Below, piece after piece: positions 10,622-61,303 of a DNA stretch of 64,000 nucleotides. Under the pieces are notes generated by a model. It worked only from the letters and a program-made list of their open reading frames with translations. It did no database searches and was not told where the DNA came from. How positions within the stretch are numbered: the first letter of the stretch is position 1; the number at the start of each line of letters is the position of its first letter. The DNA lies in assembly GCF_000266905.1 (NCBI RefSeq), contig NC_018027.1, positions 620,001 to 684,000 on the forward strand, given 5' to 3'. Source of the stretch: Mycolicibacterium chubuense NBB4. GTDB lineage: Bacteria; Actinomycetota; Actinomycetes; Mycobacteriales; Mycobacteriaceae. Position numbers and translations under genes: made by a program.

Positions 10622-10690
10622 TTCCCGCCGAACTTGCATTCCGTGTGGCGTGCACTCGCACTTTGCCTCGTGGAATGCAATTTCGGCGGA
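10622..10690. repeat. Intergenic inverted-repeat element, copy 1
   Basis: Left arm 10625-10642 (CCGCCGAACTTGCATTCC) and right arm 10672-10689 (GGAATGCAATTTCGGCGG) pair over 17 of 18 positions around a 29-nt loop. Lies between the glutaredoxin-like gene and hemA. Loop sequence resembles that of copy 4 (GGCGT, CACTCG, ACT, TGC in the same order). Confidence 0.9.
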
Positions 10691-10761
10691 AGAAGAGCAA
10701 ATTTGGTGGCCGGCTGGTGAACGACTACCGTTGACCGAGTGGTCTGCGTGGTGAGGAAGCC

Positions 10762-12126
10762 ATGAGCGTCTTGCTTTTCGGCGTCTCGCACCGCAGCGCG
10801 CCGGTATCCGTTCTGGAGAATCTGAGCACCGACGAGTCCGATCAGGCCAAGATCGTCGACCAGGTGCTGCAGTCGTCGCTGGTGACCGAGGCGATGGTGC
10901 TCTCCACCTGCAACCGCGTCGAAGTCTATGCGGTCGTCGAGGCCTTCCACGGCGGCCTGTCGGTGATCGGGCAGGTGCTCGCCGAGCACTCCGGGATGTC
11001 GCTGCACGACGTCACCAAGTACGCCTACGTCCGGTACGCCGAAGCCGCGGTCGAGCATCTGTTCGCCGTGGCCAGCGGCCTGGACTCCGCGGTGATCGGC
11101 GAAGCGCAGGTCCTCGGCCAGGTCCGGCGGGCCTACGCGGCGGCCGAGGCCAACCACACCGTCGGCCGCACCCTGCACGAGCTCTCCCAGCGCGCGCTGT
11201 CGGTCGGCAAGCGGGTCCACTCGGAGACCGGCATCGACGCCGCCGGCGCCTCGGTGGTGTCGGTGGCCCTGGACATGGCCGACCGCAAAGTCGGTTCGCT
11301 GGCCGGCCGCAAGGCGGTGGTGATCGGCGCCGGGTCGATGGGCGCGCTGGCATCCAAGCAGCTGATGCGGGCCGGGGTGGATCGCATCCACATCGTGAAC
11401 CGTTCGCTGCCGCGCGCCAAGAGGCTGGCCGAGAACATGCGGGCCCAGGGTGTGGCGGCCGACGCGTTCCCGTTCGATCATCTTCCGCCGCTGCTCACCG
11501 ACGCCGACGTCGTCGTCAGCTGCACCGGCGCGGTGCGCCCGGTGGTCTCCCTGGCCGACGTGCACCGCGGACTGGCGCACGGCGCGGAACGCAAGGAGCT
11601 GGTGATCTGCGACCTCGGCATGCCGAGAGACGTCGATCCGGCCGTGGCCGGGCTACCCGGCGTGTACGTCATCGACATGGAGCGCATCCTGCGTGAGCCG
11701 AAGGCCCGCACAGCTACCTCCGACGCCGAAGCCGCCCGCGCGATCGTCGCCGCCGAGGTGGCCAGTTACCTCGCCGGACAGCGCATGGCCGAGGTGACCC
11801 CCACCGTCACCGCGCTGCGCCAGCGCGCCGCCGACGTGGTCGAAGCCGAGCTGCTGCGGCTGGACAACCGGCTGCCCGATTTGGAGGCCGCCCACCGCGA
11901 CGAGGTCGCCAACACCGTGCGTCGCGTGGTCGACAAGCTCCTGCACGCCCCGACGGTGCGCGTCAAACAGCTGGCCGGCGCGCCGGGCGGGGACAGTTAC
12001 GCCGAAGCGCTGCGCGAACTGTTCGAACTCGACCAGCATGCGGTCGATGCCGTGGCGGCAAGCGAATTGCCCCTGCTCGGCGGAGACCTCGAGCCACTGA
12101 CCTCCGATCTCGACCCCACCGAGTGA
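10762..12126 (+). CDS. hemA: Glutamyl-tRNA reductase
   Basis: 454 residues. Catalyses NADPH-dependent reduction of glutamyl-tRNA to glutamate-1-semialdehyde, the committed step of C5-pathway haem synthesis. Catalytic Cys50 lies in [12 protein letters not shown]; the signature [11 protein letters not shown] is at residues 111-121; the NADPH loop [11 protein letters not shown] is at 187-198. The C-terminal dimerisation helix domain is complete. The leader contains GTGAGGAAG just before ATG 10762. First gene of hemA-hemC-hemD-hemB, with its dedicated partner hemL further along in the same window. Confidence 0.97.
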
Positions 12127-12151
12127 CGCCCTGCCCACTGAAAGCCGTGAC

Positions 12152-13087
12152 GTGATCCGCATAGGCACCCGGGGCAGTCTGCTGGCCACGACTCAGGCAG
12201 GTGTCATCCGGGACGCCCTGATCGCGGCCGGGCACGCTGCCGAACTCGTGATCGTCTCCACCGAGGGAGACCGCTCCGACGCTCCGATCGCCGACATCGG
12301 TGTCGGGGTGTTCACCGCCGCGCTGCGCGAAGCGATCGCCGACGGCACCGTCGACATGGCGGTGCATTCCTACAAGGATTTGCCGACCGCGACCGATCCG
12401 CGGTTCGTGATCGCCGCGATCCCGGTGCGCGAGGACCCTCGGGACGCCCTCGTCGCCCGTGACGGATTGGTGCTCGGAGAGTTGCCGGCAGGGTCGGTGA
12501 TCGGCACCTCGTCCCCGCGGCGGGTGGCACAGCTTAAAGCACTGGGTCTCGGTTTGGAAATTCGCCCCCTACGAGGCAACCTAGATACCAGGTTGAGCAG
12601 GGTGAGCAGCGGTGATCTCGACGCCGTCGTGGTGGCCCGAGCGGGATTGGCCCGTATCGGTCGCCTCGACGCTGTCACCGAGGCGCTGGAACCGGTACAG
12701 ATGTTGCCGGCGCCGGCCCAAGGTGCATTGGCAGTCGAGTGCCGTGCCGGGGACACCGGCCTGGCGACACTGTTGGCGGAGTTGGACGACGCCGACAGCC
12801 GGGCTGCGGTCACCGCAGAGCGAGCCCTGTTGGCCGAACTGGAGGCGGGGTGTTCCGCACCGGTGGGCGCGATCGCCGAGGTGGTCGAGTCCATCGATGA
12901 GGATGGCCGAGTCTTCGAAGAGCTGTCGCTGCGCGGTTGCGTGGCGACGCTGGACGGATCCGACGTGATCCGTGCGTCCGGTATCGGAACACCCGGTCGG
13001 GCACGGGAGCTGGGCCTCTCGGTAGCCGCGGAGCTGTTCGAGCTGGGAGCACGCGATCTGTTGGACGAACGCGGGAGAGACACATGA
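12152..13087 (+). CDS. hemC: Porphobilinogen deaminase (hydroxymethylbilane synthase)
   Basis: 311 residues. Polymerises four porphobilinogens to hydroxymethylbilane on a covalently bound dipyrromethane primer. The primer-carrying Cys is Cys234 in [11 protein letters not shown]; the active-site loop VHSYKDLPT is at residues 71-79; substrate arginines lie in [11 protein letters not shown] and [11 protein letters not shown] start 25 nt after hemA. Its stop overlaps the hemD start in ATGA. Confidence 0.97.
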
Positions 13088-14790
13088 CTCGCCAGATGAG
13101 CTTGCGAGGGCGCAAGGGCAAGCCCGGTCGCATCACGTTCGTCGGTTCCGGCCCGGGTGATCCGGGCCTGCTGACGACGCGAGCCCGCACCGTGCTGGCC
13201 AACGCCGCACTCGTGTTCACCGACCCCGACGTGCCCGAAGCGGTGCTGGCCCTGGTGGGCTCCGAGCTGCCGCCGCCGTCGGGACCGTTGCCCGCCGACG
13301 CGGCCCCGGCAGCCGCCAAGGCCGATGCCGCCGACAAGCCGGCGGTCGACGACGCGAAGCCGGCCGACGCGGTCGACCAGGCGACGGTCATCCCCGGTGG
13401 GCCCGATGTGCGGCCCGCGCTGGGCGATCCCGCCGAAGTCGCCAAGACGCTGGCCGCCGAGGCTCGCGGTGGCGTGGACGTCGTGCGCCTGGTCGCCGGC
13501 GATCCGCTGTCTGTCGACGCGGTCATCACCGAGGTGCAGGCGCTGGCCCGCACCCAGCTGCAGTTCGAGGTCGTGCCCGGGCTGCCCGACACCTCGGCCG
13601 TGCCCACCTATGCGGGGCTGCCGCTGGGTTCGTCGCACACGGTCGCCGACGTGCGCGACCCGAACGTCGACTGGGCTGCGCTGGCCGCCGCGCCGGGACC
13701 GCTGATCCTGCACGCCACGGCCTCACATCTGCCCGAGGCGGCGCGCACCCTCATCGAGTACGGCCTGGCCGACAGCACGCCGGCCGTGGTGACCGCCAAC
13801 GGCACCACCTGCCAGCAGCGCTCGGTGGAGACGACGCTGGCCGGACTGCTCGACAAGGCCACCCTCGCGGGCACCGAACCCACGGGCCCGCTGACCGGCA
13901 CGCTGGTCGTCACGATCGGTCGCACCGTCACCAACCGCGCCAAGCTGAACTGGTGGGAGAGCCGCGCGCTCTACGGCTGGACCGTGCTGGTGCCGCGCAC
14001 CAAGGACCAGGCGGGCGAGATGAGCGATCGGCTGGTCGGGCACGGCGCGCTGCCGATCGAGGTGCCGACGATCGCGGTCGAGCCGCCGCGCAGCCCGGCC
14101 CAGATGGAAAGGGCCGTCAAGGGTTTGGTCGACGGGCGCTTCCAGTGGGTGGTGTTCACGTCCACCAACGCCGTGCGCGCGGTGTGGGAGAAGTTCAACG
14201 AGTTCGGTCTGGATGCCCGCGCCTTCTCGGGTGTCAAGATCGCCTGCGTCGGTCAGGCCACCGCCGACCGGGTCCGGGCGTTCGGCATCAACCCCGAGCT
14301 GGTGCCGACGGGTGAGCAGAGCTCGCTCGGCCTGCTCGACGAATTCCCGCCCTACGACGACATTTTCGATCCGGTCAACCGGGTGCTGCTGCCGCGCGCC
14401 GACATCGCCACCGAGACGCTGGCCGAGGGACTGCGCGAACGCGGCTGGGAGATCGAGGACGTCACGGCTTATCGCACCGTGCGTGCGGCCCCGCCGCCCG
14501 CGCACACCCGCGAGATGATCAAGACGGGTGGCTTCGACGCGGTGTGCTTCACGTCGAGCTCGACGGTGCGCAACCTGGTCGGCATCGCCGGTAAGCCGCA
14601 CGCCCGCACCATCGTTGCGTGCATCGGCCCGAAAACAGCGGAGACGGCAGCGGAATTCGGTCTGCGCGTCGATGTGCAGCCCGACGTGGCAGCGGTCGGC
14701 CCGCTGGTGGAGGCGCTCGCTGAGCACGCCGCCCGCCTGCGCGCCGAGGGTGCGTTGCCGCCACCGCGGAAGAAGAGCCGCCGCCGCTAG
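13084..14790 (+). CDS. hemD: Fused uroporphyrinogen-III methyltransferase-like / uroporphyrinogen-III synthase
   Basis: 568 residues in two parts. Residues about 15-270 follow the SUMT (CysG/CobA) fold, starting with [19 protein letters not shown]. Residues about 290-550 are HemD, with [48 protein letters not shown] and [17 protein letters not shown]; this half closes and inverts ring D to give uroporphyrinogen III. The methyltransferase half is unusual: an Ala/Asp/Pro-rich insert (about 74-110) interrupts it, and the GDPxxFGRGxEE-type motif is reduced to [15 protein letters not shown]. Methylation (sirohaem branch) may be lost or altered. Starts in ATGA overlap with hemC; very basic C-terminus KKSRRR. 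Confidence 0.9.
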
Positions 14791-17702: not shown

Positions 17703-17941
17703 CCCGGCCGAGTCGTCGGCGCGCGGTCGTGGAGCTGCTGCTGGCCGTCGTCGCGGCGGTCGGTTGTGTGGTCAGTGGGGTCGCGGCGAAGACCCGGGTG
17801 GTGGTGGCACCGATCCTCGACGGCGAGCCTTCGACGACCTCGGACATGTATTACGCCCCGCTGCTGACGTTGTCGCTGCTGCTGGCCGCCGTGGCGGGGG
17901 TGCTCGCCGTGGTGGCCGTCAGCCGCCTGCGCCGCCGCTGA
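17699..17941 (+). CDS. Small two-helix membrane protein
   Basis: 80 residues: a basic N-terminus (TRPSRRRA), a first helix (VVELLLAVVAAVGCVVSGVAA), a short external loop with DGEPSTTSDMYYAP, a second helix (LLTLSLLLAAVAGVLAVVAVS) and a basic end (RLRRR). Starts in ATGA overlap with the preceding gene. An inverted-repeat element begins directly after its stop codon. Function unknown. Confidence 0.75.
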   Translation: MTRPSRRRAVVELLLAVVAAVGCVVSGVAAKTRVVVAPILDGEPSTTSDMYYAPLLTLSLLLAAVAGVLAVVAVSRLRRR

Positions 17942-18010
17942 TTCCCGCCGAAACGGCATTCCGCGCGGCTTTTCACCCGTTTTTCCCGCGGCGGACGCAA
18001 TCTCGGCGCC
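17942..18010. repeat. Intergenic inverted-repeat element, copy 2
   Basis: Begins immediately after a stop codon with ATTCCCGCCGAA. The left arm (17945-17962) and right arm (17991-18008) pair only partly, but the left end, the loop (GCGGC, TTTTCAC, CGTTT) and the right end CGCAATCTCGGCG closely match copy 5. It forms a second subtype with that copy. Confidence 0.75.
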
Positions 18011-18080: not shown

Positions 18081-18938
18081 ATGACGGAGTTGGCTCAGCA
18101 CACCGAACCTCTCGACGACGCCCTGCCACTGGGACCGAGCTCGCTGGTGTGGCGCTACTTCGGCGACAACCGGATGTATCTGATCGGCCCGCGGCCCGCG
18201 GTGCTGCAGAACATGCTCGCCGAGCTCGGTCAGGGCGTGTACGACCACTCGACGTTCTTCGCCGACACCGCCGAGCGGCTCAGGCGCACGATCCCGCCGA
18301 TCTTCAACACCGTCTACGGGTCCGACGACCGCAACGCCGGCACTCAGGTCCGCGACTTCCACCACGACGTCAAAGGCGAGATGCCCGATGGCGGTCGTTA
18401 CCACGCCCTCGACCCGGAGACCTACTTCTGGGCGCACGCGACGTTCGTCGAGCAGATCTACTACTTCGCCGACACGTTCGTGAAGCGGCTGACCGACGCC
18501 GAGAAAGAGCAGATCTGGCTCGAGTCCAAGACGTGGTACCGCCGCTACGGCGTCAGCGACCGGCCCATGCCGGCGACCTACGCCGAGTTCGAGCGGTACT
18601 GGAACCAGATGATGGACGACGTCCTGGTCGCGCACCCGTCGGCGAAGTACGGCGTCGGCTACGTCACCAAGGGCTTCCCGAGGCCCAAGGCGGTGCATCC
18701 GCTGGTGTGGCGGCTGGTGGCGCCGGTCTTCAACCCGCTTGCCGCCTTCCTGACCACCGGTGGTCTGCCACCGCGCGCCCGCGCGCTGCTCGGTCTGCCC
18801 TGGACCGACACGCAGGAACGGCGCTATCAGCGCTTCGCCGCGTTCTGGCGGTCGCGGCCGGTGAACTGGATCTGGGACCGGCTGCCGATGCGGGTCCGCT
18901 ACAACGGTCATGCGCTCAAGGGCTATGCGCGAGCCTGA
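18081..18938 (+). CDS. DUF2236 (oxygenase MpaB-like / Lcp-like) protein
   Basis: 285 residues of the DUF2236 family, related to the ER-bound oxygenase MpaB and to latex-clearing proteins, which bind haem or iron. Visible family features are the N-terminal [38 protein letters not shown] segment, [15 protein letters not shown], the [19 protein letters not shown] helix with a candidate metal/haem His, and [16 protein letters not shown]. Substrate unknown; related proteins act on hydrophobic compounds. Directly upstream of and overlapping a TetR gene. Confidence 0.82.
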
Positions 18939-24800: not shown

Positions 24801-25411
24801 ATCGGTCGGTGGCGCTCAAGCGCACGCTGCTTGCGGCGTGCGCGGCCACCCTCGTGCTCGCCGGGTGTTCGACCGGGCATGACGCGGTCGCGCAAGGCGG
24901 CACCTTCGAATTCGTTGCGCCGGGCGGCAAGACCGACATCTTCTACGACCCGCCGGACCGCCGCGGTAAGCCGGGACCGCTGTCGGGCCCGGACCTCAGC
25001 GACACGAACAAGACGCTCTCCCTGAAAGACTTCGCCGACAAGGTCGTCGTCATCAACGTGTGGGGGCAATGGTGCGGGCCGTGCCGCACCGAGATCCCCG
25101 AGCTGCAGAAGGTCTACGCCGCGACGCGGGACAAGGGCGTGGCGTTCCTCGGGATCGACGTGCGGGACAACAACATCGACGCGGCGCGCGACTTCGTCGT
25201 CGACCGCGGCGTCACGTTCCCGTCGATCTACGACCCGCCGATGCGCACGATGATCGCCTTCGGCGGTCGCTACCCGACCACCGTCATCCCCTCGACGGTG
25301 GTGCTCGACCGCGAACACCGCGTCGCCGCGGTGTTCCTGCGCGAGCTGCTGGCCTCGGACCTGCAGCCGGTGGTCGAACGGCTGGCCGCCGAAGGGCCGT
25401 CGGACAAATGA
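24797..25411 (+). CDS. TlpA/ResA-like thioredoxin lipoprotein (Rv0526-like)
   Basis: 204 residues. A signal peptide with lipobox LVLAGC places the lipidated Cys at residue 24. The thioredoxin domain follows with the active site WGQWCGPC (Cys93, Cys96), the WCGPC typical of TlpA/ResA. Anchored outside the membrane, it should reduce apocytochrome c CxxCH thiols, taking electrons from CcdA encoded next. GTGA overlap with the preceding gene and ATGA with ccdA. Confidence 0.92.
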   Translation: MNRSVALKRTLLAACAATLVLAGCSTGHDAVAQGGTFEFVAPGGKTDIFYDPPDRRGKPGPLSGPDLSDTNKTLSLKDFADKVVVINVWGQWCGPCRTEIPELQKVYAATRDKGVAFLGIDVRDNNIDAARDFVVDRGVTFPSIYDPPMRTMIAFGGRYPTTVIPSTVVLDREHRVAAVFLRELLASDLQPVVERLAAEGPSDK

Positions 25412-26187
25412 GTCCTGATCAGCTCGACCACCTCACGGCCGGCGGCCCGCTGCTGTTGGCGATGGCGGTCAGCATCCTCGCCGGACTGGTGTCGTTCGCC
25501 TCGCCCTGCGTGGTCCCGCTCGTACCCGGATACCTGTCGTATCTCGCCGCGGTGGTCGGCGTCGAAGACGCGCCCGCGCCGGTCACGACACTGCGCGGTG
25601 CCCGGCTGCGCGTCGCCGGTGCGGCCGCCCTGTTCGTCGGCGGGTTCACCGCGGTGTTCCTGCTCGGCACCGTCGCGGTGCTGGGGATGACGACGACGCT
25701 GATCACCAATCAGCTTCTGCTGCAACGGGTCGGCGGAGTGATCACGGTGCTGATGGGCCTGGTCTTCATCGGCCTGATCCCGATGCTGCAGCGCGACACC
25801 CGGTTCACCCCGAGACAGATCTCGACGCTGGGCGGCGCGCCGCTGCTCGGCGCGGTGTTCGCGTTGGGCTGGACGCCGTGTCTGGGCCCGACGCTGACCG
25901 GGGTGATCGCGGTCGCGTCGGCCACCGAGGGCAGCAACGTGGTCCGCGGCGTGCTCCTCGTCATCGCGTACTGCCTGGGACTCGGAATACCGTTCGTGGC
26001 GCTGGCTTTCGGTTCGGCGCGCGCGGTCGCCGGCCTCGGCTGGCTGCGCCGGCACACCCGCGCGATCCAGGTCTTCGGCGGAGTATTGCTGATCCTGGTA
26101 GGTACCGCGCTGGTCACCGGTGTGTGGAACGACTTCGTGTCGTGGGTGCGCGATGCGTTCGTCAGCGACGTGAGGTTGCCGATCTGA
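25408..26187 (+). CDS. ccdA: Cytochrome c biogenesis protein CcdA
   Basis: 259 residues with about six transmembrane helices. The electron-carrying Cys pair is Cys34 (SFASPCVVPLVPG) and Cys158 (LGWTPCLGPTL), each in the conserved P-C-helix setting. It moves electrons from cytoplasmic thioredoxin to the external thioredoxin-like lipoprotein. Its TGA stop overlaps the resB ATG (TGATG). Confidence 0.95.
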   Translation: MSPDQLDHLTAGGPLLLAMAVSILAGLVSFASPCVVPLVPGYLSYLAAVVGVEDAPAPVTTLRGARLRVAGAAALFVGGFTAVFLLGTVAVLGMTTTLITNQLLLQRVGGVITVLMGLVFIGLIPMLQRDTRFTPRQISTLGGAPLLGAVFALGWTPCLGPTLTGVIAVASATEGSNVVRGVLLVIAYCLGLGIPFVALAFGSARAVAGLGWLRRHTRAIQVFGGVLLILVGTALVTGVWNDFVSWVRDAFVSDVRLPI

Positions 26188-27863
26188 TGGTCACCGCGTC
26201 CCCGCGAGCAGACGTGAACTCGCACAAGAACGGCCCGAAACGCGCGATTTCGCGTCTGCTCGCCCTGGTCCGCAACACGTGGCGGACGCTGACGTCGATG
26301 GGCACCGCGCTGGTGCTGCTGTTCCTGCTCGCGCTGGGCGCCATTCCCGGCGCGCTGCTGCCGCAACGGAGCCTCAACGAGGGCAAGGTCGCCCAGTACA
26401 TCGACGACCATCCGATCCTCGGCCCGTGGCTGGATCGCCTACAGGCCTTCGACGTGTTCTCCAGTTTCTGGTTCACCGCGATCTACGTGTTGCTGTTCGT
26501 CTCACTGGTGGGCTGTCTGACGCCCAGGCTGGCCGAACACCTGCGCAGCCTGCGCGCCATGCCGGTTCCGGCGCCCCGCAATCTGGCGCGGCTGCCCAAG
26601 CACCACACCGCGCAAGTCCCGGGCGACGCCGCCGCGATGGCCACCTCCGTCGAGCACACGCTGCGTGGCTGGCGCAAGACCACCCGCCGCGACGGCGAGT
26701 CGGCCGGAGCCGCTCCGTCGGCGACATCGAGCATCGAGGTCTCGGCCGAGAAGGGCTATCTGCGCGAGTTCGGCAACATCGTGTTCCACTTCTCGCTGCT
26801 GGGCCTGCTCGTCGCGGTCGCGGCCGGCAAGCTGTTCAGCTACGAGGGCAACGTGATCGTCGTGGCGGACGGCGGACCCGGGTTCTGTTCGGCGTCCCCG
26901 GCGGCGTTCGACTCCTTCCGGGCCGGCAACGTCGTCGACGGCACGTCGCTGTATCCGATGTGCCTGCGGGTCAACGATTTCCAGGCCAACTATCTGCCGA
27001 ACGGGCAGGCCACGTCGTTTCAGGCCGACATCGACTACCAGGCCGGTGACGACCTGACCGCGGGCACCTGGCGGCCGTATCTGCTCAAGGTCAACGAGCC
27101 CCTGCGCATCGGTGGCGACCGGGTCTACCTGCAGGGGCACGGGTACGCGCCGACGTTCAGCGTCACGTTCCCCGACGGCAAGACCCGGACGCAGACGCTG
27201 CAGTGGCGCCCCGAGGACCAGATGACGCTGCTGTCGTCCGGTGCGATGCGATTCGACCCGCCCGGGGGTACCTACGCCGACGAACGCGACCGCCGCAAGA
27301 ACCAGATCGCGATCCAGGGCCTGTTCGCCCCGACCGAGCAGCTCGACGGCACGCTGCTCTCGTCCCGCTACCCCGCGATGAACGAGCCCGCGGTGGCGGT
27401 CGACATCTACAAGGGCGACACCGGCCTGGACACCGGGCGGCCCCAGTCACTGTTCAGCCTCGACCCGCGGATGGTCGGGCAGGGCCGGCTGACGAAGATG
27501 GCGCGGGTGAACCTGCGCGCCGGGCAGGACACCCGGTTGCCGGACGGCACGATCGTGCGGTTCGACGGTGCGGTGCCGTTCGTCAACCTCCAGGTGTCGC
27601 ACGACCCGGCCCAGGTCTGGGTCCTGGTGTTCGCGATGACGATGATGGCCGGGCTGCTGGTGTCGCTGATCGTGCGCCGCCGACGCGTCTGGGTGCGGCT
27701 CACCCCGGGCCCTGCGGGTACGGTGAACGTCGAGCTGGGCGGTCTCGCACGCACCGACAACTCGGGGTGGGGCGATGAGTTCGAACGGCTGACGGCGCGG
27801 TTGCTCGCCGGGTTCCAGACCCTCGCGCCGGTCGAGGAAGAGAAGAAGGCGGATCGCGCATGA
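26187..27863 (+). CDS. resB: Cytochrome c biogenesis protein ResB (system II)
   Basis: 558 residues. Three N-terminal helices (MGTALVLLFLLALGAIPGALLP; FWFTAIYVLLFVSLVGCLTPRL; FGNIVFHFSLLGLLVAVAAG), a large external domain and a final helix (VWVLVFAMTMMAGLLVSLIV). Partner of CcsA in the haem delivery and ligation complex of system II; the His in FHFSLLG is a candidate haem ligand. ATG 26187 overlaps the ccdA stop; the stop overlaps the ccsA ATG. Confidence 0.93.
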   Translation: MVTASPRADVNSHKNGPKRAISRLLALVRNTWRTLTSMGTALVLLFLLALGAIPGALLPQRSLNEGKVAQYIDDHPILGPWLDRLQAFDVFSSFWFTAIYVLLFVSLVGCLTPRLAEHLRSLRAMPVPAPRNLARLPKHHTAQVPGDAAAMATSVEHTLRGWRKTTRRDGESAGAAPSATSSIEVSAEKGYLREFGNIVFHFSLLGLLVAVAAGKLFSYEGNVIVVADGGPGFCSASPAAFDSFRAGNVVDGTSLYPMCLRVNDFQANYLPNGQATSFQADIDYQAGDDLTAGTWRPYLLKVNEPLRIGGDRVYLQGHGYAPTFSVTFPDGKTRTQTLQWRPEDQMTLLSSGAMRFDPPGGTYADERDRRKNQIAIQGLFAPTEQLDGTLLSSRYPAMNEPAVAVDIYKGDTGLDTGRPQSLFSLDPRMVGQGRLTKMARVNLRAGQDTRLPDGTIVRFDGAVPFVNLQVSHDPAQVWVLVFAMTMMAGLLVSLIVRRRRVWVRLTPGPAGTVNVELGGLARTDNSGWGDEFERLTARLLAGFQTLAPVEEEKKADRA

Positions 27864-39515: not shown

Positions 39516-40646
39516 ATGACCTCCACAGCGCTGTGTGAACAATTCGGCATCGACTTCCCGCTCTTCGCGTTCAGCCACTGCCGCGACGTCGTGGCCGCGG
39601 TGACCAACGCGGGCGGCTTCGGGGTCCTCGGTGCGACCGCCTACACGCCGACGCAGCTCGACCAGGAGCTGGCGTGGATCGACGAGGCGGTCGGCGGCAA
39701 ACCCTACGGTGTCGACCTCATCGTGCCCGCCAAGTACGAGGGCAAGGGCGAGAAGGTCACCAGTTCCGATCTGGCGCAACGTATTCCGGAGAGCTACCGC
39801 GAGCTGGTGGACGATCTGCTGCGCGCCCACGACATCGAGCCCGAGCCCAAGCGCAGGCTCGGCGGGGCGTCGCTGTCGGGCAGCACCGGCCGCGAGTTGC
39901 TCGACGTCGCGCTCACTCACCCCGTCAAGCTCATCGCCAACGCGTTGGGCGTGCCGCCGGACTACATGATCGAGGCGGGCAAGGAGCGCGGCATCCCTGT
40001 GGCCGCGCTGGTCGGCGCCAAGGAGCACGCCGTCAAGCAGGTCGCCGCGGGTGTCGACCTGATCGTGGCGCAGGGGACCGAGGCCGGCGGTCACTGCGGT
40101 GAGGTCAGCACGCTCGTCGTGGTCCCCGAAGTGCTCGAAGCCATCGAGCAGATGGGGTCGGCGACACCGGTGCTGGCCGCCGGCGGCATCGTCACCGGCA
40201 GGCAGATGGCCGGCATGGTCGCCATCGGCGCGGCCGGTGCCTGGACGGGCTCGGTGTGGCTGACCACCGAGGAGGCGGAGACGGCGCCGCACACCGTCGC
40301 CAAGATGCTTGCCGCGACCTCGCGGGACACCGTGCGCTCGGCGGGCCGCACAGGCAAGCCGTCGCGGCAGCTGGCGTCGGAGTGGACCGATGCGTGGCTG
40401 CCGCACGCCGGCGGGCACCAGCCGTTGCCGCTGCCCCTGCAGTCGATGCTCTGCGAGCCGGTGATCCGCCGCATCGACGTGCTCGCCTCGCAGGGCCATC
40501 CGGGAGCGCAGGCGCTGGCCACCTACTTCGTCGGCCAGGGGGTGGGGCTGATGAACAAGGTGAAGCCGGCCCGCGAGGTCGTGCGCGAGTTCATCGAGGA
40601 CTACCTGGCTGCCGCGGAGCGGCTGAGCAACTCGCTACCCGGCTGA
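39516..40646 (+). CDS. Nitronate monooxygenase (2-nitropropane dioxygenase) family flavoenzyme
   Basis: 376-residue FMN TIM-barrel protein. Family segments are the N-terminal ITFDFPLFAF-like strand (IDFPLFAFSHCRDVVAAVTNAGGFGVLGA), AAGVDLIVAQGTEAGGHCGEVSTLVVVPEV with the phosphate-binding Gly and His, and PVLAAGGIVTGRQMAGMVAIGAAGAWTGSVWLTTEEA. Oxidises nitronates or, in several mycobacterial relatives, serves steroid/lipid breakdown; substrate unknown. Palindromic operator and leaderless -10 directly upstream. Confidence 0.88.
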   Translation: MTSTALCEQFGIDFPLFAFSHCRDVVAAVTNAGGFGVLGATAYTPTQLDQELAWIDEAVGGKPYGVDLIVPAKYEGKGEKVTSSDLAQRIPESYRELVDDLLRAHDIEPEPKRRLGGASLSGSTGRELLDVALTHPVKLIANALGVPPDYMIEAGKERGIPVAALVGAKEHAVKQVAAGVDLIVAQGTEAGGHCGEVSTLVVVPEVLEAIEQMGSATPVLAAGGIVTGRQMAGMVAIGAAGAWTGSVWLTTEEAETAPHTVAKMLAATSRDTVRSAGRTGKPSRQLASEWTDAWLPHAGGHQPLPLPLQSMLCEPVIRRIDVLASQGHPGAQALATYFVGQGVGLMNKVKPAREVVREFIEDYLAAAERLSNSLPG

Positions 40647-40649
40647 CCT

Positions 40650-40717
40650 TTCGCCGAACTGGGATTCCCGGCTGTGAAATAGCCCGCGACAACGACCGGG
40701 AACCTCAGTTCGGCGCA
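40650..40717. repeat. Intergenic inverted-repeat element, copy 3 (divergent)
   Basis: Left arm 40652-40671 and right arm 40696-40715 pair over 18 of 20 positions (CGCCGAACTG....TTCCCGG), with a 24-nt loop. The ends match the family; the inner arms and loop differ most from the other copies. Between convergent genes, so it could act as a bidirectional terminator. Confidence 0.75.
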
Positions 40718-40724: not shown

Positions 40725-41750
40725 TCAGTCGGTGGCCAGCGGAAGGCGCACCTCGAAGCGGGCGCCCGTCGGCAGGTTGTGCGCCGAGAGCGTCCCGCGA
40801 TGCGCCTGCACCAGTCCCGCGGCGATCGCCAGGCCCAGCCCCGAACCGCTCGGCAGCGACGAATCCGCCCGCGGCACACGGCTGTTCGAACCGCGATAGG
40901 CGACGTCGAAGACCCGCGGCAGGTCCGCCTCGTCGATACCCACCCCGGTGTCGTCGACGCGGGCCCACGCACTGTTCTCGTCGGCGCCCAGCGCCAACTC
41001 GACGCTGCCGCCCTCGGGCGTGTGCGCGATCGCGTTGGCCACCAGGTTCGACAGCACCCGCACCAGGGCGCGGTCGCTGCCGACCACGCGCACGGGCTGC
41101 TCCGGCAGGTTCGCCCGCAGGTCCACCCCGGCGCGCTCCGCGGCGATCCGGTGGGCGGCGAGCACGTCGTCGACGACCTCGTCGAGCGCGACCTTGTCGA
41201 AGGACGGCGTCAGCGCGCCCGCGTTGATCTTCGACATCTCGAACAGGTCGTCGACCATCTCCGACAGGCGCACCGACTCGTGCTCGATGTGCTTGGCGTG
41301 CACCCGCACCTCGTCGTCGGGGACCACACCGTCGGCGATCGCCTCCGACACCGCGCGGATGCCGGCCAGCGGGGTCCGCAGATCGTGGCTGACGAAGGCG
41401 ACCAGCCTGCGCCGGGATTGCTCGGCCGAGCGCTCGGAGTCGCGGATCTCGGCCTCCCACACCGTGCGCCGGGCCTGGAAACGGCCCAGCATCACCGCCG
41501 CGGGAATCGTCACGATCGACACGATGACCAGCACCACGGCCGTCCGCTCGAACGTCTGGGTGATCATGAACCCGCTCGCGCCGAGCACTCCGGTGAACGT
41601 CGCCAGCACCGGGATCAGCACCAGCGCCACCATGCTGACGGCCAGCGACCACGTGCGCGCCAGCCGGATGACCGCGGCGCCGGCCAGCACCACGGGGACC
41701 GAACAGGCCAGGGCCCAGCCGACGATCTCCCAGAATTCAGTTGTCGGCAT
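40725..41750 (-). CDS. Sensor histidine kinase
   Basis: 341 residues. Several N-terminal hydrophobic segments (VGWALACSVPVVLAGAAVIRL; LAVSMVALVLIPVLATFTGVL; TAVVLVIVSIVTIPAAVML) precede the H-box AFVSHDLRTPLAGIRAVSEAI and the HATPase_c domain (N-box NLVANAIAHTPEGG; G boxes DDTGVGIDEADLPRVFDVAYRG and SGSGLGLAIAAGLV). No large external sensor domain. Overlaps its response regulator by 14 nt. Confidence 0.92.
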   Translation of the reverse strand: MPTTEFWEIVGWALACSVPVVLAGAAVIRLARTWSLAVSMVALVLIPVLATFTGVLGASGFMITQTFERTAVVLVIVSIVTIPAAVMLGRFQARRTVWEAEIRDSERSAEQSRRRLVAFVSHDLRTPLAGIRAVSEAIADGVVPDDEVRVHAKHIEHESVRLSEMVDDLFEMSKINAGALTPSFDKVALDEVVDDVLAAHRIAAERAGVDLRANLPEQPVRVVGSDRALVRVLSNLVANAIAHTPEGGSVELALGADENSAWARVDDTGVGIDEADLPRVFDVAYRGSNSRVPRADSSLPSGSGLGLAIAAGLVQAHRGTLSAHNLPTGARFEVRLPLATD

Positions 41751-55050: not shown

Positions 55051-55938
55051 TCAGTTCCTGGGCTGCATGCGCTGACGCTTCATGATCGAGTCCACCGCGG
55101 CGGGAGCGATGCTGTTGATCGCGTGCGCGGTGACGGCGATGCGCGGAGCGATGCTCACGGGCCGGTGGCGCGCCGCGGTGACGATCCAGTTCGCCGCTTC
55201 GTCTGCCGAGAGTCCGGGGAGGCCGTCGTAGGCGCGCGTCGGCGCGATCATCGGGGTCTTCACCAGCGGGTAGTACAGCGTCGTCGCGTGCACGCCTTTG
55301 TCGGACCATTCCGTCTCGATGATGCGGCTGATCGACGACAGCGCCGCCTTCGACGCGTTGTACACCCCGAACAGCGGTGGCGACTCGGTCTTCACACCCC
55401 AGGTGGAGACGTTGATGATGTGGCCTTCTGCGCGCTCGAGCATGCCGGGCGCCAGCCCGCGGATCAATCGGACCGGCCCGTAGTAGTTGAGCGTCATCGT
55501 CCGCTCGACGTCGTGCCACCGCTCGAGCGACTCGACCAGCGGCCGCCGGATCGACCGGCCGGCGTTGTTGACCAGGATGTCGATGCCGCCGAACTCGGCG
55601 TCGACGGTCGCGACCAGTTCGTCGATCGCGTCGAGGTCGGACAGGTCGCAGGCAAGCGCGCGAGCCTGCCCACCGGCGTCGGCGATCCGCGCGGCGACGG
55701 CGTCGAGCAGCTCCTGGCGCCGGGCCACCAGCACAACCCGTGCGCCGCGGCGGGCCAGCTTCTCGGCCGCGGCTTCGCCGATGCCCGAGGACGCCCCGGT
55801 CAGCAGGATCCGCTTGCCCCTCAGGTCGATGACCTCGCGGTCGGGCCGGTACTGCAGCAGCGTCGGAAGGAGCGGCGGGCGCATGCTCGTCAGCACGACC
55901 TGGTCGGCCAGCCGCCGCAAGGGGTTCCTGCGTGTCAC
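55051..55938 (-). CDS. Short-chain dehydrogenase/reductase (Rv0547c-like)
   Basis: 295 residues, classical SDR: cofactor loop RILLTGASSGIGEAAAEKLARRGARVVLVARR, NNAG motif DILVNNAGRSIRRP, Ser in IINVSTWGVK, and catalytic YNASKAALS. The C-terminal tail (TAHAINSIAPAAVDSIMKR) suggests membrane association. GTG 55938 chosen; ATG 55983 lies inside the inverted-repeat element. Confidence 0.88.
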   Translation of the reverse strand: MTRRNPLRRLADQVVLTSMRPPLLPTLLQYRPDREVIDLRGKRILLTGASSGIGEAAAEKLARRGARVVLVARRQELLDAVAARIADAGGQARALACDLSDLDAIDELVATVDAEFGGIDILVNNAGRSIRRPLVESLERWHDVERTMTLNYYGPVRLIRGLAPGMLERAEGHIINVSTWGVKTESPPLFGVYNASKAALSSISRIIETEWSDKGVHATTLYYPLVKTPMIAPTRAYDGLPGLSADEAANWIVTAARHRPVSIAPRIAVTAHAINSIAPAAVDSIMKRQRMQPRN

Positions 55939-55966
55939 GGGAAGCGAGTCTAGGTCCGTTCCCCAA

Positions 55967-56035
55967 CCCCGCCGAAATTGCATTCCGGCAGGGCGTCACT
56001 CGAACTCTTGCACGCGGAATGCAATTTCGGCGGGA
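55967..56035. repeat. Intergenic inverted-repeat element, copy 4 (perfect arms)
   Basis: Arms 55968-55986 (CCCGCCGAAATTGCATTCC) and 56016-56034 (GGAATGCAATTTCGGCGGG) are perfectly complementary over 19 bp, with a 29-nt loop like that of copy 1. Lies between the menB stop and the SDR start. Confidence 0.95.
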
Positions 56036-56037: not shown

Positions 56038-56949
56038 TCAGAAGTAGCGGGGGAACGGTGTCCAGTCGGGGTCGCGCTTCTCCAGGAACGCGTCGCGACC
56101 CTCGACGGCCTCGTCGGTCATGTACGCCAGCCGCGTCGCCTCGCCGGCGAACAGCTGCTGGCCCACCAGGCCGTCGTCGAGCAGGTTGAACGCGTACTTC
56201 AGCATCCGGACGGCCTGCGGCGACTTGCCATTGATCTCCGAAGCCCATTGCAGCGCAACGCTTTCCAGATCAGCGTGGTCGACGACCTCGTTCACCGCGC
56301 CCATCGCGTGCATCTGCTCGGCGGTGTAGGGGCGGCCCAGGAAGAAGATCTCGCGGGCGAACTTCTGCCCGGTCTGGCGCGCGAGGTAGGCGCTGCCGTA
56401 GCCGCCGTCGAAGCTGCCCACGTCGGCGTCGGTCTGCTTGAACCGCGCATGCTCGCGCGACGCCAGCGTCAGGTCGCACACCACGTGCAGGGAGTGCCCG
56501 CCGCCGGCGGCCCATCCGTTGACCAGGCAGATCACCGGTTTGGGCATGAACCGGATCAGGCGCTGCACCTCGAGGATGTGCAGGCGCCCCGCGCGGGCCG
56601 GGTCGACGGTCTCGGCCGTCTCACCGGCGGCGTACTGATAGCCCGAGCGGCCGCGGATGCGTTGGTCGCCGCCGGAGCAGAACGCCCAGCCGCCGTCCTT
56701 GGGCGACGGGCCGTTGCCGGTCAGCAGGACGACGCCGACGTCCGAGGACATCCGGGCGTGGTCGAGCACCCGGTACAGCTCGTCGACGGTGTGCGGGCGG
56801 AACGCGTTGCGCACCTCCGGACGGTCGAACGCCACCCGCACCGTCGGCAGGCGCGTCCCGTCGGCGACATGGCGGTGGTAGGTGATGTCGGTCAGGTCGT
56901 CGAAGCCGGCGACCGGCTCCCAGAGGCTGGCGTCGAACGGATTGCTCAC
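56038..56949 (-). CDS. menB: 1,4-dihydroxy-2-naphthoyl-CoA synthase
   Basis: 303-residue crotonase-fold enzyme that cyclises o-succinylbenzoyl-CoA. Oxyanion-hole segments GWAFCSGGDQRIRG and CLVNGWAAGGGHSLHVVCDLTLAS, and the active-site Asp region TDADVGSFDGGYGSAYLARQTG are all intact, as is the C-terminal FLEKRDPDWTPFPRYF. GTG 56949 has TAGCGT 7 nt upstream, inside the previous gene, so menB has its own leaderless promoter. With menA and menE it supplies menaquinone. Confidence 0.95.
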   Translation of the reverse strand: MSNPFDASLWEPVAGFDDLTDITYHRHVADGTRLPTVRVAFDRPEVRNAFRPHTVDELYRVLDHARMSSDVGVVLLTGNGPSPKDGGWAFCSGGDQRIRGRSGYQYAAGETAETVDPARAGRLHILEVQRLIRFMPKPVICLVNGWAAGGGHSLHVVCDLTLASREHARFKQTDADVGSFDGGYGSAYLARQTGQKFAREIFFLGRPYTAEQMHAMGAVNEVVDHADLESVALQWASEINGKSPQAVRMLKYAFNLLDDGLVGQQLFAGEATRLAYMTDEAVEGRDAFLEKRDPDWTPFPRYF

Positions 56950-57415: not shown

Positions 57416-58120
57416 CAGCTGGACGCCGTGCGCCCACAGCGCTGCGACCAGGCCGTCCTTGCGGTCCCGCGTCGGCAGCGGGTCGACGAGTGCGAACGCG
57501 CATCCCAGCGCGCGGGCGCCCCCGTCGGCTTCGTCGCTGTCGCCGACCATCAGCGCCCGTTCGGCGGGCACGCCGAGCCGGTCCAGCGCGGCCTGAAAGA
57601 TCGCGGGGTCCGGTTTGACGGCGCCGACCTCGAAGGACAACACGAACTCGTCGACGTCCCCGGCGGTGCCGAGGGCCTCGAACGCGGGCCTGATGTCGAA
57701 CGCGATGTTGGACACCACCGCGGTCTTGATGCCGCGGCGGTGCAGACCGGCGAGCACCGTCGCGGTGTCCGCGTACGGGGTCCAGCACGCGGGGTCGATC
57801 ACCTTGCCGTACAGCGCTTCCGCGTGGTGATGGGCCAGCCCGGACTCCCGCAGCACATGCAGGTAGGCCTCGCGGTGCAAATGCGGTTTGAGGTCGCGGT
57901 TCATCCACGTCTCGAGCGCCTCGGGCGTCATCGTCACCGACCGTCCGGTCGGCGCGGTCAGCCGCCGCATCAACTCGGCCTGGACGTGGCCGTCGATCTC
58001 GCGGGTCTCGTCCGGGCTCAGCGGGGCGTCGAGTTCCATGCCGGTGAACCAGCTGTCGTCTTCCTCGAGCCGGAACAGCGTGCCGGAGAAGTCGAACATC
58101 ACCGCGTGCAGTTCGGTCAC
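57413..58120 (-). CDS. HAD-superfamily hydrolase
   Basis: 235 residues. Motif I VMFDFSGTLFRLEED carries Asp-x-Ser in place of the usual DxD: the first Asp is the nucleophile but the second position is Ser, which favours phosphonatase/dehalogenase-like or altered chemistry. Motif II VVSNIAFD, motif III KPDPAIF and motif IV MVGDSDEADGG are normal. Cap domain between residues 15 and 100. GTG 58120. Substrate unknown. Confidence 0.86.
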   Translation of the reverse strand: MTELHAVMFDFSGTLFRLEEDDSWFTGMELDAPLSPDETREIDGHVQAELMRRLTAPTGRSVTMTPEALETWMNRDLKPHLHREAYLHVLRESGLAHHHAEALYGKVIDPACWTPYADTATVLAGLHRRGIKTAVVSNIAFDIRPAFEALGTAGDVDEFVLSFEVGAVKPDPAIFQAALDRLGVPAERALMVGDSDEADGGARALGCAFALVDPLPTRDRKDGLVAALWAHGVQL

Positions 58121-58170
58121 CTCACCATCCTGCCAGGTGTGAAACCGCCGTCGAACGGCTAAATACCCGC

Positions 58171-58911
58171 ATGATCTCGTCCGCGGGCCAGCCGAATCAG
58201 ACCGTGGTCGTGGTGCCGGCTCACAACGAACTTACCGATCTGCCCCGGTGCCTGCGCGGACTGACCACCGCGGCGCTGTGCCTGCCGAGCCCGGTCGCCA
58301 CCGTCGTGGTCCTCGACTCCAGTGACGACGGCAGCGAGCGGCTGGCCGGCGAATTCGGACCCGACGTCCACTTCATCGCGGTCGACGCGGGCAACGTGGG
58401 AGCGGCCCGTGCGGCGGGTTTCGAATACGCCCGGCGGCTGCTCGGCGACGACGAGCTGGACATGACCTGGTACGCGACCACCGACGCCGACAGTGTCGTC
58501 GACGCCGACTGGCTGGTGCGGATGCACGACCCCGAGGTACACGGCGGCGCGGACATGGTGCTCGGTGTCGTGCGGGTGCCCGTCTGGCGGCACTTCTCGC
58601 CGGCCGTCGCGCGCCGCTACCTGCGCGCGTACCGCTCCAACGGACCCGGCCACCGCCACGTCCACGGCGCGAACATGGGATTCCGGGCCGACGCCTACTG
58701 GCACGTCGGCGGCTTCCGCGCCCTGCCCACCGGCGAGGACGTCGAACTCGTGCGACGCTTCGAGGCCGCCGGTCTGCGCATCCACCGGGACCCGGCGCTG
58801 TCGGTGGCGACCTCGGACCGGCACGAGGGCCGGGCACCGAGCGGCTTCGCCGCGCACCTGAAGAACCTGTCGCGGTCCGTCCGCACACCGAGAGCCGGTA
58901 CCGCTTCGTGA
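58171..58911 (+). CDS. Family 2 glycosyltransferase
   Basis: 246 residues. VVVVPAHNELTDLPRCLRGL starts the GT2 fold; VVVLDSSDDGSERLA, donor site WYATTDADSVVDADWLVRM (DAD), and acceptor region GANMGFRADAYWHVGGFRALPTGEDVELVRRFEAAG with the ED pair follow. No membrane helix. Leads a four-gene operon in which every junction is a 4-nt overlap. Confidence 0.88.
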   Translation: MISSAGQPNQTVVVVPAHNELTDLPRCLRGLTTAALCLPSPVATVVVLDSSDDGSERLAGEFGPDVHFIAVDAGNVGAARAAGFEYARRLLGDDELDMTWYATTDADSVVDADWLVRMHDPEVHGGADMVLGVVRVPVWRHFSPAVARRYLRAYRSNGPGHRHVHGANMGFRADAYWHVGGFRALPTGEDVELVRRFEAAGLRIHRDPALSVATSDRHEGRAPSGFAAHLKNLSRSVRTPRAGTAS

Positions 58912-59849
58912 GCGTCGGCCTGGTCCGGGACTGGCTCGCCTCCGGCGCGCTGGACCTTCCGCTTCCCGGCCAGGGCGACACCGCGCGGCGCTGGCAGCGC
59001 CTCGCGCAACTGACCGAATCCGACGTCACCGCCGGGCGGCTCGCCGAAGCCCATGCCGACGCCACCGCGATCCTCGCCGAGCTCGGCGGTGCGCCGCCGG
59101 CGCCGGGCCAGTGGTGGGGAGTGTGGGCCGCCGAAGCTCCCGGCGGTGCGCTGTGCGCGGCCGTCGAGGGCACGCAGGTCCGGCTCGAGGGGACGAAGGC
59201 GTGGTGCTCAGGTGCCGGCCTGTGCTCGCACGCCCTGGTGACCGCACGGCTGCCGTCGGGCGAGCGCGGCCTGTTCGCGGTCGACCTCGGCGCGCCCGGT
59301 GTCCGTCCGCTGCCCAGCGACTGGTGTGCGCCGGGTATGGCCGAATCAGACACGCGCTCAGTGGAATTCACTGATGTCCCGGCGGTGCAGGTGGGCCGGC
59401 CGGGGGAGTATCTGTCGCGGCCCGGGTTCTGGCACGGCGCCGTCGGGGTGGCGGCCTGCTGGCTCGGTGGTGCGCGGGCGGTGGCGGCGCCGCTGTCCGC
59501 GCGCGTCGCCGGCGCGACCGCGGACGCGCACACCCTGGCACACCTGGGCGCAGTGGACGCGGCACTGTTCGCCGCGGAGGCGACAGTGGCGGCGGTCGCC
59601 CGCGAAATCGACGCAGACCCGTCGAATCACAGGGGCAGCGCCGAGCTGCTGGCACGGCGGGCCAGGGCGGTGGTCGAGACGGCGGTCGACGAATCGATCA
59701 CCCGCACGGCGCGAGCGCTCGGTCCCGCGCCGTTGTGTCTGGATGCCGCGCACGCGAGACGGGTCGCCGACCTGTCGATCTACGTCCGGCAGAGCCATGC
59801 CGAGCGGGATCTCGAACGGCTCGGCTCGCTGGCGGGAGGGCGGAGATGA
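58908..59849 (+). CDS. Acyl-CoA dehydrogenase-like protein (short)
   Basis: 313 residues, shorter than the usual 380 or so. The central beta-domain (LEGTKAWCSGAGLCSHALVTARL) and part of the C-terminal helical bundle (WLGGARAVAAPLSARVAGATADAHTLAHLGAVDAALFAAEATVAAVAREID) can be followed, but the N-terminal domain is reduced and the typical ACAD signatures and catalytic Glu are not obvious. It may bind FAD without normal dehydrogenase chemistry. GTGA and ATGA overlaps with its neighbours. Confidence 0.8.
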   Translation: MSVGLVRDWLASGALDLPLPGQGDTARRWQRLAQLTESDVTAGRLAEAHADATAILAELGGAPPAPGQWWGVWAAEAPGGALCAAVEGTQVRLEGTKAWCSGAGLCSHALVTARLPSGERGLFAVDLGAPGVRPLPSDWCAPGMAESDTRSVEFTDVPAVQVGRPGEYLSRPGFWHGAVGVAACWLGGARAVAAPLSARVAGATADAHTLAHLGAVDAALFAAEATVAAVAREIDADPSNHRGSAELLARRARAVVETAVDESITRTARALGPAPLCLDAAHARRVADLSIYVRQSHAERDLERLGSLAGGRR

Positions 59850-60613
59850 CCACTGCGCAGACGGGTAACGCGGCGCGGCTGGCCGCCCGCCCCGTGCCGG
59901 GCGGAGGCACGCCCACCCGCACCTGGCTCGACGCCGGTGTGCACCTGACGGTGCTCGACCTGGCCGAGTGCCCGGAGCTGGTGCTCGTCGGTGCGCACCC
60001 CGACGACGAGACTCTCGGCTTCGGAGCGACGGCGGCGCTGCTGGCCGATGCGGGCGTGCCGGTGCAGACCGTCTCGGCGAGCGACGGCGGTGCTGCCTAC
60101 CCGGAATTGACTCTGCTGCAACGCTATCGGCTGGAACGGACCCGGCGGGAGGAACTGCGCCGCGCGACGGCCGCACTCGGATTGCACGTGCCTCTGTCGC
60201 TCGGTCTGCCCGACGGCGAGATCGAACGGCACGAGGAGCGGCTCGCGGATCTGCTCACCGAGATCCTGGCCACCAAGCCCGTCGGCACGTGGTGTGCGGC
60301 GACCTGGCGCGGCGACGGGCACCCCGACCACGAGGCGGTCGGGCGTGCCGCCGCGACCGCGGTCGAGCGCACCAGGGCCGTGCTCGTCGAGTACCCGGTG
60401 TGGATGTGGCACTGGGCGTCGCCGGGCGACCCGGCGGTGCCGTGGGGCCGGGCCGTCACGGCACCCCTGACGCCGGCGGTCATGGATCGCAAACACAGTG
60501 CTGCGCAGTGCTTTCAGAGTCAGTACGTGGCTCCGTTCAGCGGGGGCGACCCGGTTCTGCCGCCGGCGGTGCTGCACCGGCTCCTCACGGTCGGCGAGGT
60601 GATGTTCCGCTGA
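59846..60613 (+). CDS. PIG-L / LmbE-family N-deacetylase
   Basis: 255 residues. The zinc motif LVLVGAHPDDETLGFGATAAL (AHPDDE, near residue 50) and the second His motif WRGDGHPDHEAVGRAAA are intact, so it should hydrolyse an N-acetyl or amide group from a sugar, as MshB, Mca and PIG-L do. ATG 59846 overlaps the preceding stop. Context suggests deacetylation of a glycosylated product of the GT2. Confidence 0.9.
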   Translation: MTTAQTGNAARLAARPVPGGGTPTRTWLDAGVHLTVLDLAECPELVLVGAHPDDETLGFGATAALLADAGVPVQTVSASDGGAAYPELTLLQRYRLERTRREELRRATAALGLHVPLSLGLPDGEIERHEERLADLLTEILATKPVGTWCAATWRGDGHPDHEAVGRAAATAVERTRAVLVEYPVWMWHWASPGDPAVPWGRAVTAPLTPAVMDRKHSAAQCFQSQYVAPFSGGDPVLPPAVLHRLLTVGEVMFR

Positions 60614-61233
60614 GTTCGCGACTACCCGACAGCTACTTCGACCGCATGTACGCCGAGGCCGACGATCCTTGGCAGCTGCAGACCCGGTGGTACGAGGACC
60701 GCAAGTACGCGATCACGATGGCGCTGTTGCCGTATCGGCGATACCGGCACGCCTTCGAGCCGGGGTGCTCCGTCGGCGTGCTCACCCGGCGTCTGGTCGA
60801 CCGGTGCGATCACGTCACCAGCACCGACGTCAGCACCGCCGCGCTCGATGCCACACATCGCCGCCTCGTCGCCGACCGGGTCGACGCCCGGGTGACGCTG
60901 ATGCGGGGATCACTCGATCAGCCCTGGCCGCCAGCGCGTTTCGATCTGGTGGTGCTCTCCGAGGTCGGCTACTACCTGCAGCCGCAGTTGTTGCGCACGG
61001 TCCTCGACCGGGAGGTGCCGCGCCTCGCGCGACCCGCCACGGTGCTCGCGGCGCACTGGAGACACGCGGTCGCGGACTACCCGATGACCGGCGACCAGGT
61101 CAACCAGATCGTCGGCGCCACCGCGGGTCTGCACCACCTCGGCGGCTATCGGGACGCCGACGTGGTCATCGACGTGTTCGACACGTCGAGCCCGGACTCG
61201 GTCGCGGCACGCAACGCGGTCCCCGGCGCCTAA
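60610..61233 (+). CDS. NodS-like SAM-dependent methyltransferase with CTG start
   Basis: 207 residues. The N-terminus SSRLPDSYFDRMYAEADDPWQLQTRWYEDRKYAITMALLPYRRYRHAFEPGCSVGVLTRRL is the family start with SAM motif I (GCSVG); STDVSTAALDATHRRL and FDLVVLSEVGYYL follow. There is no ATG, GTG or TTG before this conserved region; CTG 60610 overlaps the deacetylase stop as CTGA, like the other junctions of the operon. ATG 60643 would remove the conserved SYFD. NodS relatives N-methylate a deacetylated aminosugar. Confidence 0.82.
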   Translation: MSSRLPDSYFDRMYAEADDPWQLQTRWYEDRKYAITMALLPYRRYRHAFEPGCSVGVLTRRLVDRCDHVTSTDVSTAALDATHRRLVADRVDARVTLMRGSLDQPWPPARFDLVVLSEVGYYLQPQLLRTVLDREVPRLARPATVLAAHWRHAVADYPMTGDQVNQIVGATAGLHHLGGYRDADVVIDVFDTSSPDSVAARNAVPGA

Positions 61234-61234
61234 C

Positions 61235-61303
61235 TCCCCGCCGAACTTGCATTCCACGCGGCATCTTCACGCATTTCCGCACGCTGCACGCAATCTCGGC
61301 GTC
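61235..61303. repeat. Intergenic inverted-repeat element, copy 5
   Basis: Left arm 61238-61255 is identical to that of copy 1 (CCGCCGAACTTGCATTCC). The right end CGCAATCTCGGCG and the loop (ACGCGGC, TCTTCACGC, TTTCC) match copy 2; arms pair over about 12 of 17. Lies between convergent genes. Confidence 0.8.

Follow-up and report, generated by a model that had tools for sequence, protein, structure and literature searches.

The tuberculosis Rho-independent terminator (TRIT) of Gardner et al. 2011 (RNIE) is reportedly a structured motif that mycobacteria conserve at the ends of genes. Here we describe a family of palindromic elements at the gene ends of mycobacteria, five copies of which lie in 64,000 nucleotides of Mycolicibacterium chubuense NBB4 DNA (contig NC_018027.1, positions 620,001 to 684,000; this whole stretch is referred to as the window). 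A passage of PMC3526491 refers to the TRIT model of these authors. Several other described systems are related in their design. Repetitive extragenic palindromes (REPs) carry a GTAG or CGTC tag and have stems of 5-13 bp. The GTAG types often contain GT pairs and accompany REP-associated tyrosine transposases (RAYTs), and in two genomes the majority of convergent REPs are no more than 20 bp from either 3' end (passages of PMC3733652). DNA uptake sequences (DUS) have species-specific spellings, with two dialects in one genome, and inverted DUS pairs are associated with terminators (passages of PMC3630211 and PMC5217627). The second of these sources also describes a CGAAA(N)19TTTCG dyad motif that is widespread in Mycobacterium and is placed in genes. 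Finally, 121 mapped tuberculosis termination sites carry no conserved motif 3' of their hairpins, according to the relevant part of PMC10937400.

The elements resemble each of these systems in some respects. Like TRIT, by its reported description, they form a conserved structured motif at mycobacterial gene termini, and the family may be identical to the TRIT motif. The present analysis contributes the dialects, the in-place change and the half-site pattern. Like REPs and bacterial interspersed mosaic elements (the GTAG and CGTC superfamilies), they are palindromic and extragenic, and they share the closeness to both 3' ends of convergent genes that passages of PMC3733652 describe for REPs, but they have ~22-bp arms, no GTAG or CGTC tag, no G.U preference and no match to a Y1 transposase in the genome that contains the window (G000). 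Species dialects, with two in the genome of a second species (G500), recall DUS and uptake signal sequences; unlike these, the elements have a longer half-site, about 70 copies, a near-fixed pair spacing and no lone sites among the 100 arms listed out of 129. Intrinsic terminators similarly place hairpin-capable sequence just past the stop codon, but the elements differ from them in having no U-tract, conserved arm letters and a ~19-nt centre. The CGAAA(N)19TTTCG pair is likewise a dyad motif in Mycobacterium, as passages of PMC5217627 describe it; however, the spacing differs, with about 49 nt between the elements' outer CGAA and TTCG blocks, and the published motif is the one placed in genes.

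The reading that we favour, tentatively and at somewhat less than an even chance, is that each element serves as a two-part DNA site for a putative sequence-specific protein that would end or insulate transcription at gene ends. In this genus-restricted family two copies of a half-site of ~18-22 bp, inverted and held at a near-fixed spacing (63-64 bp overall), sit directly after stop codons, and the putative DNA-binding protein, co-evolving with the dialects, would occupy both of them. The resulting protein-DNA complex would then act as a barrier or an insulator, ending or separating transcription whichever way it runs. The elements' preference for convergent junctions and 3' ends, and their avoidance of 5' regions, would follow from this.

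Number, anatomy and gene-end position of the elements

All five repeat copies recorded in the window by an initial annotation were recovered, and a search of the 6.34-Mb genome showed that the family they form part of has at least 72 members. A 19-base arm pattern, allowing up to 3 mismatches, gave 64 + 65 matches in the genome against 0 + 0 for the reversed control. A covariance model (R1) gave 140 matches at 71 distinct places, and one window copy (copy 3) brings the total to at least 72; copy numbers are lower bounds, and the R1 count comes from 150 scored candidates out of 3717. The places listed in the R1 search all lie on the main contig (C3, of which the window is positions 620001-684000), whose start is near dnaA. 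Counted by fifths from origin to terminus, there are 17, 23, 19, 9 and 4 copies in G000 and 12, 18, 20, 15 and 6 in G500, and on the main contigs of both genomes the density of elements drops toward the replication terminus.

The anatomy of the elements is highly uniform. The core is 63 bp long in 60 and 64 bp long in 12 of the 72 elements of G000, and it is 63 bp long in 65 of the 71 elements of G500. A ~19-bp centre, which tends to YACTCGnACTTT in one orientation, separates two ~22-bp inverted arms with a spelling close to CGCCGAAMTTGCATTCC(A/G)CGCG in G000, and the element ends in CGCCG/CGGCG; terminal inverted repeats, as in miniature inverted-repeat transposable elements (MITEs), are thus present. 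Among the 100 arms listed out of 129 arm matches none is unpaired, all 100 lying inside elements. Some elements are mixed and join one standard arm to a second recurring arm that reads roughly CGCCGAGAYTGCATSCA (C3:329855, 637944, 681237, 1250064, 1255193 and others); this recurring arm may be a separate half-site class, as opposed to random decay.

Positions relative to genes, which rest on our own gene calls and not on annotation, place the family at gene ends. Of the 72 elements in G000, 38 are at convergent, 31 at tandem and 2 at divergent junctions, with 1 unassigned, and the 71 elements of G500 divide into 36 convergent, 33 tandem and 2 divergent. Elements from other genomes (n=85, that is 88 elements minus 3 repeats already in the G000 or G500 sets) are found at 50 convergent, 31 tandem and 1 divergent junctions, the remaining 3 being at locus edges. 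Against a background of the other gaps of 60 nt or more in these regions, obtained by subtracting the element junctions, the junction types differ with p = 2e-16 and 1e-18. The distance from stop codon to core has a median of 8 nt in G000 (103 of 107 distances used, 94 of them ≤25 nt) and of 9 nt in G500 (98 of 105 used, 90 of them ≤25 nt). The elements are thus extragenic, located at 3' ends and rare between divergent genes, as REPs are, and enriched at gene termini, as TRIT reportedly is. A few lie inside a called ORF, namely 3 of 72 in G000 (C3:213100, 1251282 and 4607700) and, with large negative distances, 4 of 71 in G500 (C1:216423, 345420, 402790 and 4610687); the overlapping ORFs were taken for gene miscalls, without proof. 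Outward of the elements no U-tract occurs, T making up 6-26% (G000) or 9-30% (G500) at each of the first 8 positions. A classical (Rho-independent) terminator was accordingly rejected, on the missing U-tract and on a scan of 52-64 kb of the window for terminator-like sequences that found no match at either copy there (copies 4 and 5).

Relatives of the elements occur in much of the genus as defined by GTDB. The exact 17-base arm is present in only 2 of 301 genomes of the taxonomic family, but R1, with 17 candidates scored in each genome, found relatives in 189 of 297 genus genomes. Of 40 genus genomes searched with a broader model (R2; 131 candidates scored per genome), 39 have matches, as many as 128 when both strands are counted; these 40 were picked mostly for their R1 matches, so that 39 of 40 is not a prevalence. 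Of 40 genomes of the taxonomic family, R2 matched 2, both from the element's own genus, and in the 38 genomes of 30 other genera it gave no match. A repeat diagnostic of the M. tuberculosis complex was present in none of 396 genus genomes. Exact paired arms are present at named loci of M. austroafricanum, M. sp. NAZ190054, M. vaccae, M. chubuense, M. parafortuitum and M. chlorophenolicum. A text search of the literature for six arm spellings found no paper.

Inheritance in place and arm dialects

Species differ at few arm positions, and the spelling mostly matches in both arms of one element. Across 41 genus elements, 12 of 23 pairs have changed on both sides and 95.4% of cells pair; a second covariation count gave 16 of 22 pairs changed on both sides. 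Two dialects, defined by arm position 6, coexist in G500, with 36 elements in family I, 34 in family II and 1 mixed, so that 70 of the 71 elements have the same dialect in both arms. More distant species (G029, G308, G285 and G363) carry quite different mirror-symmetric arms around a similar centre, although the model used there (R3) contains the centre motif and the conservation of the centre in these species is therefore partly selected for. The distant-species loci L281-L289 (G029) and L290-L319 (G029, G308, G285, G363 and G322) hold elements of similar size and place, with arms for example of CGTTGACTCTGCG or CGCGAGATCGC type; 30 such loci comprise 22 convergent, 7 tandem and 1 divergent junctions.

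Comparison of G500 with G000 reveals how the elements have been passed on. Thirty-two of the 71 G500 elements are at junctions that have an element in G000 too (24 assigned by both flanks and 8 by one, corresponding to 31 G000 elements), 6 face a covered G000 junction that has no counterpart (1 by both flanks, 5 by one), 29 have no match in the fetched regions and 4 are unclear. At the shared junctions the flanking genes are 71% identical at third codon positions. The centres, compared in the inherited orientation, are 49% identical versus 36% for permuted pairs (0.494 vs 0.361; none of 1000 permutations as high; 26 equal-length pairs of the 32), a value lower than the third-codon-position identity (0.49 vs 0.71), and a strand-blind comparison gives a smaller excess (0.507 vs 0.458). 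Because 32 of 71 G500 elements share junctions with G000 and their centres are more alike than those of permuted pairs, the elements at shared junctions are shown to have been, on average, inherited in place. Identity at these junctions is 94-100% for arm positions 2-5, 11 and 14-17 but just 27% and 33% for the dialect positions 9 and 12, whose letters differ in both arms. The centre thus evolves fast and most arm letters are held, while at many loci both arms have acquired other dialect letters. Neither recent transposition nor drift readily accounts for this combination.

These data bear on the proposal of the initial annotation that the repeats are REP- or MITE-like elements still spreading. 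In its fullest form, a palindromic element would be moved in trans by a putative transposase that targets gene ends, and the arms would be uniform because only recognisable ends move. The inverted ends, near-fixed length and at least 72 dispersed copies are what such an element would have, and its centre is found in both orientations. Presence and absence also alternate at some orthologous junctions; certain elements of relatives correspond to empty junctions in G000, so that elements are at times gained or lost. However, the flanks of the 72 G000 and 71 G500 elements show direct matches (k = 2-9) near the shuffled level, and hence no excess of target duplications, with the sole exception of one 5-mer in G000 (1 vs 0.03 expected). 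The Y1 transposase family expected of REP-like elements (PF01797) has no match in G000; across 20 genomes it matches in 5, in 4 of them over the cut-off. The high-copy genomes G332 and G459 are among those over the cut-off, which speaks for mobility, but the 15 genomes without a match include G000 and another six, in which 48 to 128 element matches were counted. RAYT/REP was rejected on this search and on anatomy. An origin in phages or plasmids was likewise rejected, as no copy was found in viral contigs searched by arm pattern or in plasmids and phages searched with copy 4 only. Together with the lack of unpaired arms among those listed and with the vertical inheritance at junctions shared by G500 and G000, where the centres are related, these results render current spread by transposition improbable, and the elements resemble functional signals at gene ends more than they do mobile DNA. 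Two other suggestions of the same annotation, common descent and a structural or termination signal, fared better, being supported by the near-fixed 63-64 bp, the shared centre motif, the many copies and their adjacency to stop codons. Separately, genome G302 has nine Y1 transposase matches in 4.0 Mb and a single R2 element match.

The dialects also invite a comparison with DNA transfer. By analogy with the DUS of Neisseriaceae, the half-sites might be read by a transfer machinery, be kept uniform by biased recombination and be paired at gene ends, where they would also aid termination. Species dialects, two of them in one genome, do parallel those of DUS as passages of PMC3630211 describe them. 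The same passages have DUS running to thousands and occurring in coding DNA as well, whereas the elements number about 70 and show no lone half-sites among the 100 listed arms, so that this analogy seems very improbable. Mobile elements and DNA-transfer signals are both less well supported than a DNA site or an RNA hairpin.

RNA stem or paired DNA half-sites

The main rival to the DNA-site reading is a bidirectional, sequence-conserved RNA hairpin that would end or trim transcripts at 3' ends, either as in the TRIT idea or as a hairpin for RNase processing, its stem forming from either strand between convergent genes. We consider this possible but lean against it. The elements adjoin stop codons on both sides at convergent junctions, which a hairpin of this type would explain, and stable stem-loops favour convergent junctions and the 50 bp past stop codons in the bacteria studied in PMC1590033, as far as its relevant passages report. 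Window copies 1, 3 and 4 fold at -37 to -43 kcal/mol and exceed their shuffles with z of -8.0, -5.4 and -6.6, respectively, and the arms covary strongly across species. On the other hand, two of the five window copies fold poorly or barely beyond shuffles, copy 5 being slightly better than its shuffles (z -2.3) and copy 2 not (z -1.0; 28 of 200 shuffles equally good). The missing U-tract and the scan that flagged neither copy 4 nor copy 5 also count against an RNA terminator, and a hairpin leaves the conservation of arm letters within a genome unexplained.

Three tests for selection on RNA pairing gave no clear sign of it. In the first, the two arms were compared at dimorphic positions. At arm position 8 of G000 (A or C, 73:71) the arms match in 43 of the 72 elements (Fisher p 0.16), at position 18 (A/G) they do so in 24 of 63 (p 0.04, toward disagreement), and at position 13 of G500 family II the p value is 1.0; these stem positions therefore vary largely independently between the arms. 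In the second, G.U was not preferred over A.C when tandem junctions were read in the transcript sense (25 vs 29 in G000, 33 vs 32 in G500). In the third, the directional centre was oriented sense:antisense at scorable tandem elements in ratios of 13:8, 12:7 and 9:19, an even 34:34 in sum. Complementary tolerated letters in the two arms fit one double-stranded half-site that is used twice.

Several observations weigh against a DNA site. The covariation across species (12 of 23 and 16 of 22 pairs) is strong and is expected of an RNA stem, although both views predict it. The arms agree in 26 of 36 elements at position 10 of G500 family I (p 0.058), and position 8 of G000 leans likewise (43 of 72). 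The three sets of centre orientations differ from one another, so that chance may have contributed to the even total. RNA terminators, too, take the form of long hairpins at 3' ends, and very stable folds are predicted for three of the five window copies. One DNA-binding specificity would not simply explain the different arms of the distant species. The binding protein itself stays putative, and its binding and the termination of transcription are what we infer from the sequences.

Window copies and the meaning of a gene-end family

The R1 model finds the five copies in the window with best-strand E values of 1.3e-15 to 1.9e-06, the next-best match having 0.18; since its seed of 25 genome copies included copies 1, 2, 4 and 5, copy 3 is the sole independent window match. 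No strand is assigned to any of them. Copy 1 (63-bp core, 10626..10688) is at a tandem junction, 9 nt past the stop of a glutaredoxin-like gene (10374-10616, +) and before a glutamyl-tRNA reductase (hemA-like) gene that starts at 10762 (+). Copy 2 (63-bp core, 17946..18008) begins 4 nt past the stop of an ORF at 17729-17941 (+), before an MpaB-like gene at 18081 (+), and has a diverged right arm and a weak hairpin. Copy 3 (64-bp core, 40652..40715) is at a convergent junction, 5 nt past the stop of a nitronate-monooxygenase-like gene (39516-40646, +) and 9 nt from the stop of a histidine kinase gene (40725-41750, -); it is a divergent relative that forms a subgroup with three genome copies judged similar by eye (C3:898404, 4275286 and 4367175). 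Copy 4 (63-bp core, 55970..56032) is 5 nt from the stop of an enoyl-CoA hydratase-like gene (56038-56949, -), with a short-chain dehydrogenase/reductase (SDR) gene (55051-55983, -) next, and the same junction is occupied in G500 by an element of another dialect (C1:836195). Copy 5 (63-bp core, 61239..61301) is at a convergent junction, 5 nt past the stop of a methyltransferase-like gene (60646-61233, +) and 9 nt from the stop of an AMP-binding gene (61311-62921, -); its right arm is diverged. A sixth copy of the family begins 253 bp past the end of the window.

Two details of the initial annotation need amending. It held that the copies never lie inside genes, which is true of the window with one exception, the SDR gene, whose called start reaches 14 nt into the core of copy 4; a later start is likely, because the Pfam domain of that gene begins at residue 57. 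It also distinguished two loop types, and these are not clear, as judged without a formal test of two types: copies 1 and 4 have a plain YACTCGnACTTT centre and copies 2 and 5 a weak version of the same motif, the trait common to the latter two being the diverged right arm. An Rfam search of the window gave no gathering-level match. The mir-2062 and other miRNA families were rejected, because the relatives' weak matches are below gathering scores and reflect long hairpins fitted to long-hairpin models.

The window contains other repeats as well. A 60-bp palindrome of different sequence at 26204-26263, with ~20-bp arms and a few mismatches, begins 16 nt past the stop of the gene at 25408-26187 (+) and extends over the start called for the following gene. 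The 11 bases at the end of its arm do not recur exactly elsewhere in the window, and a version of 12 bases is present in 1 of 289 fetched loci. At 6238-6303, just past the ORF at 6099-6236 (+), there are two adjacent 33-bp units that are 97% identical, each with a terminal TGA.

Taken one step further, the DNA-site reading would describe a dedicated mycobacterial gene-end system, in which a putative protein, or paralogues of it with one for each dialect as in G500, acts on paired half-sites after stop codons to halt or insulate transcription from both sides, the protein and its about 70 sites co-evolving into dialects. In this specific form the proposal is on the unlikely side. A family of fixed design that marks gene ends, especially convergent ones, nevertheless supplies concrete sites for testing. 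Dozens of inherited loci have dialect differences in both arms, which suggests a partner molecule that could be fished with the 63-bp DNA, and a comparison of the dialects across species provides natural specificity variants.

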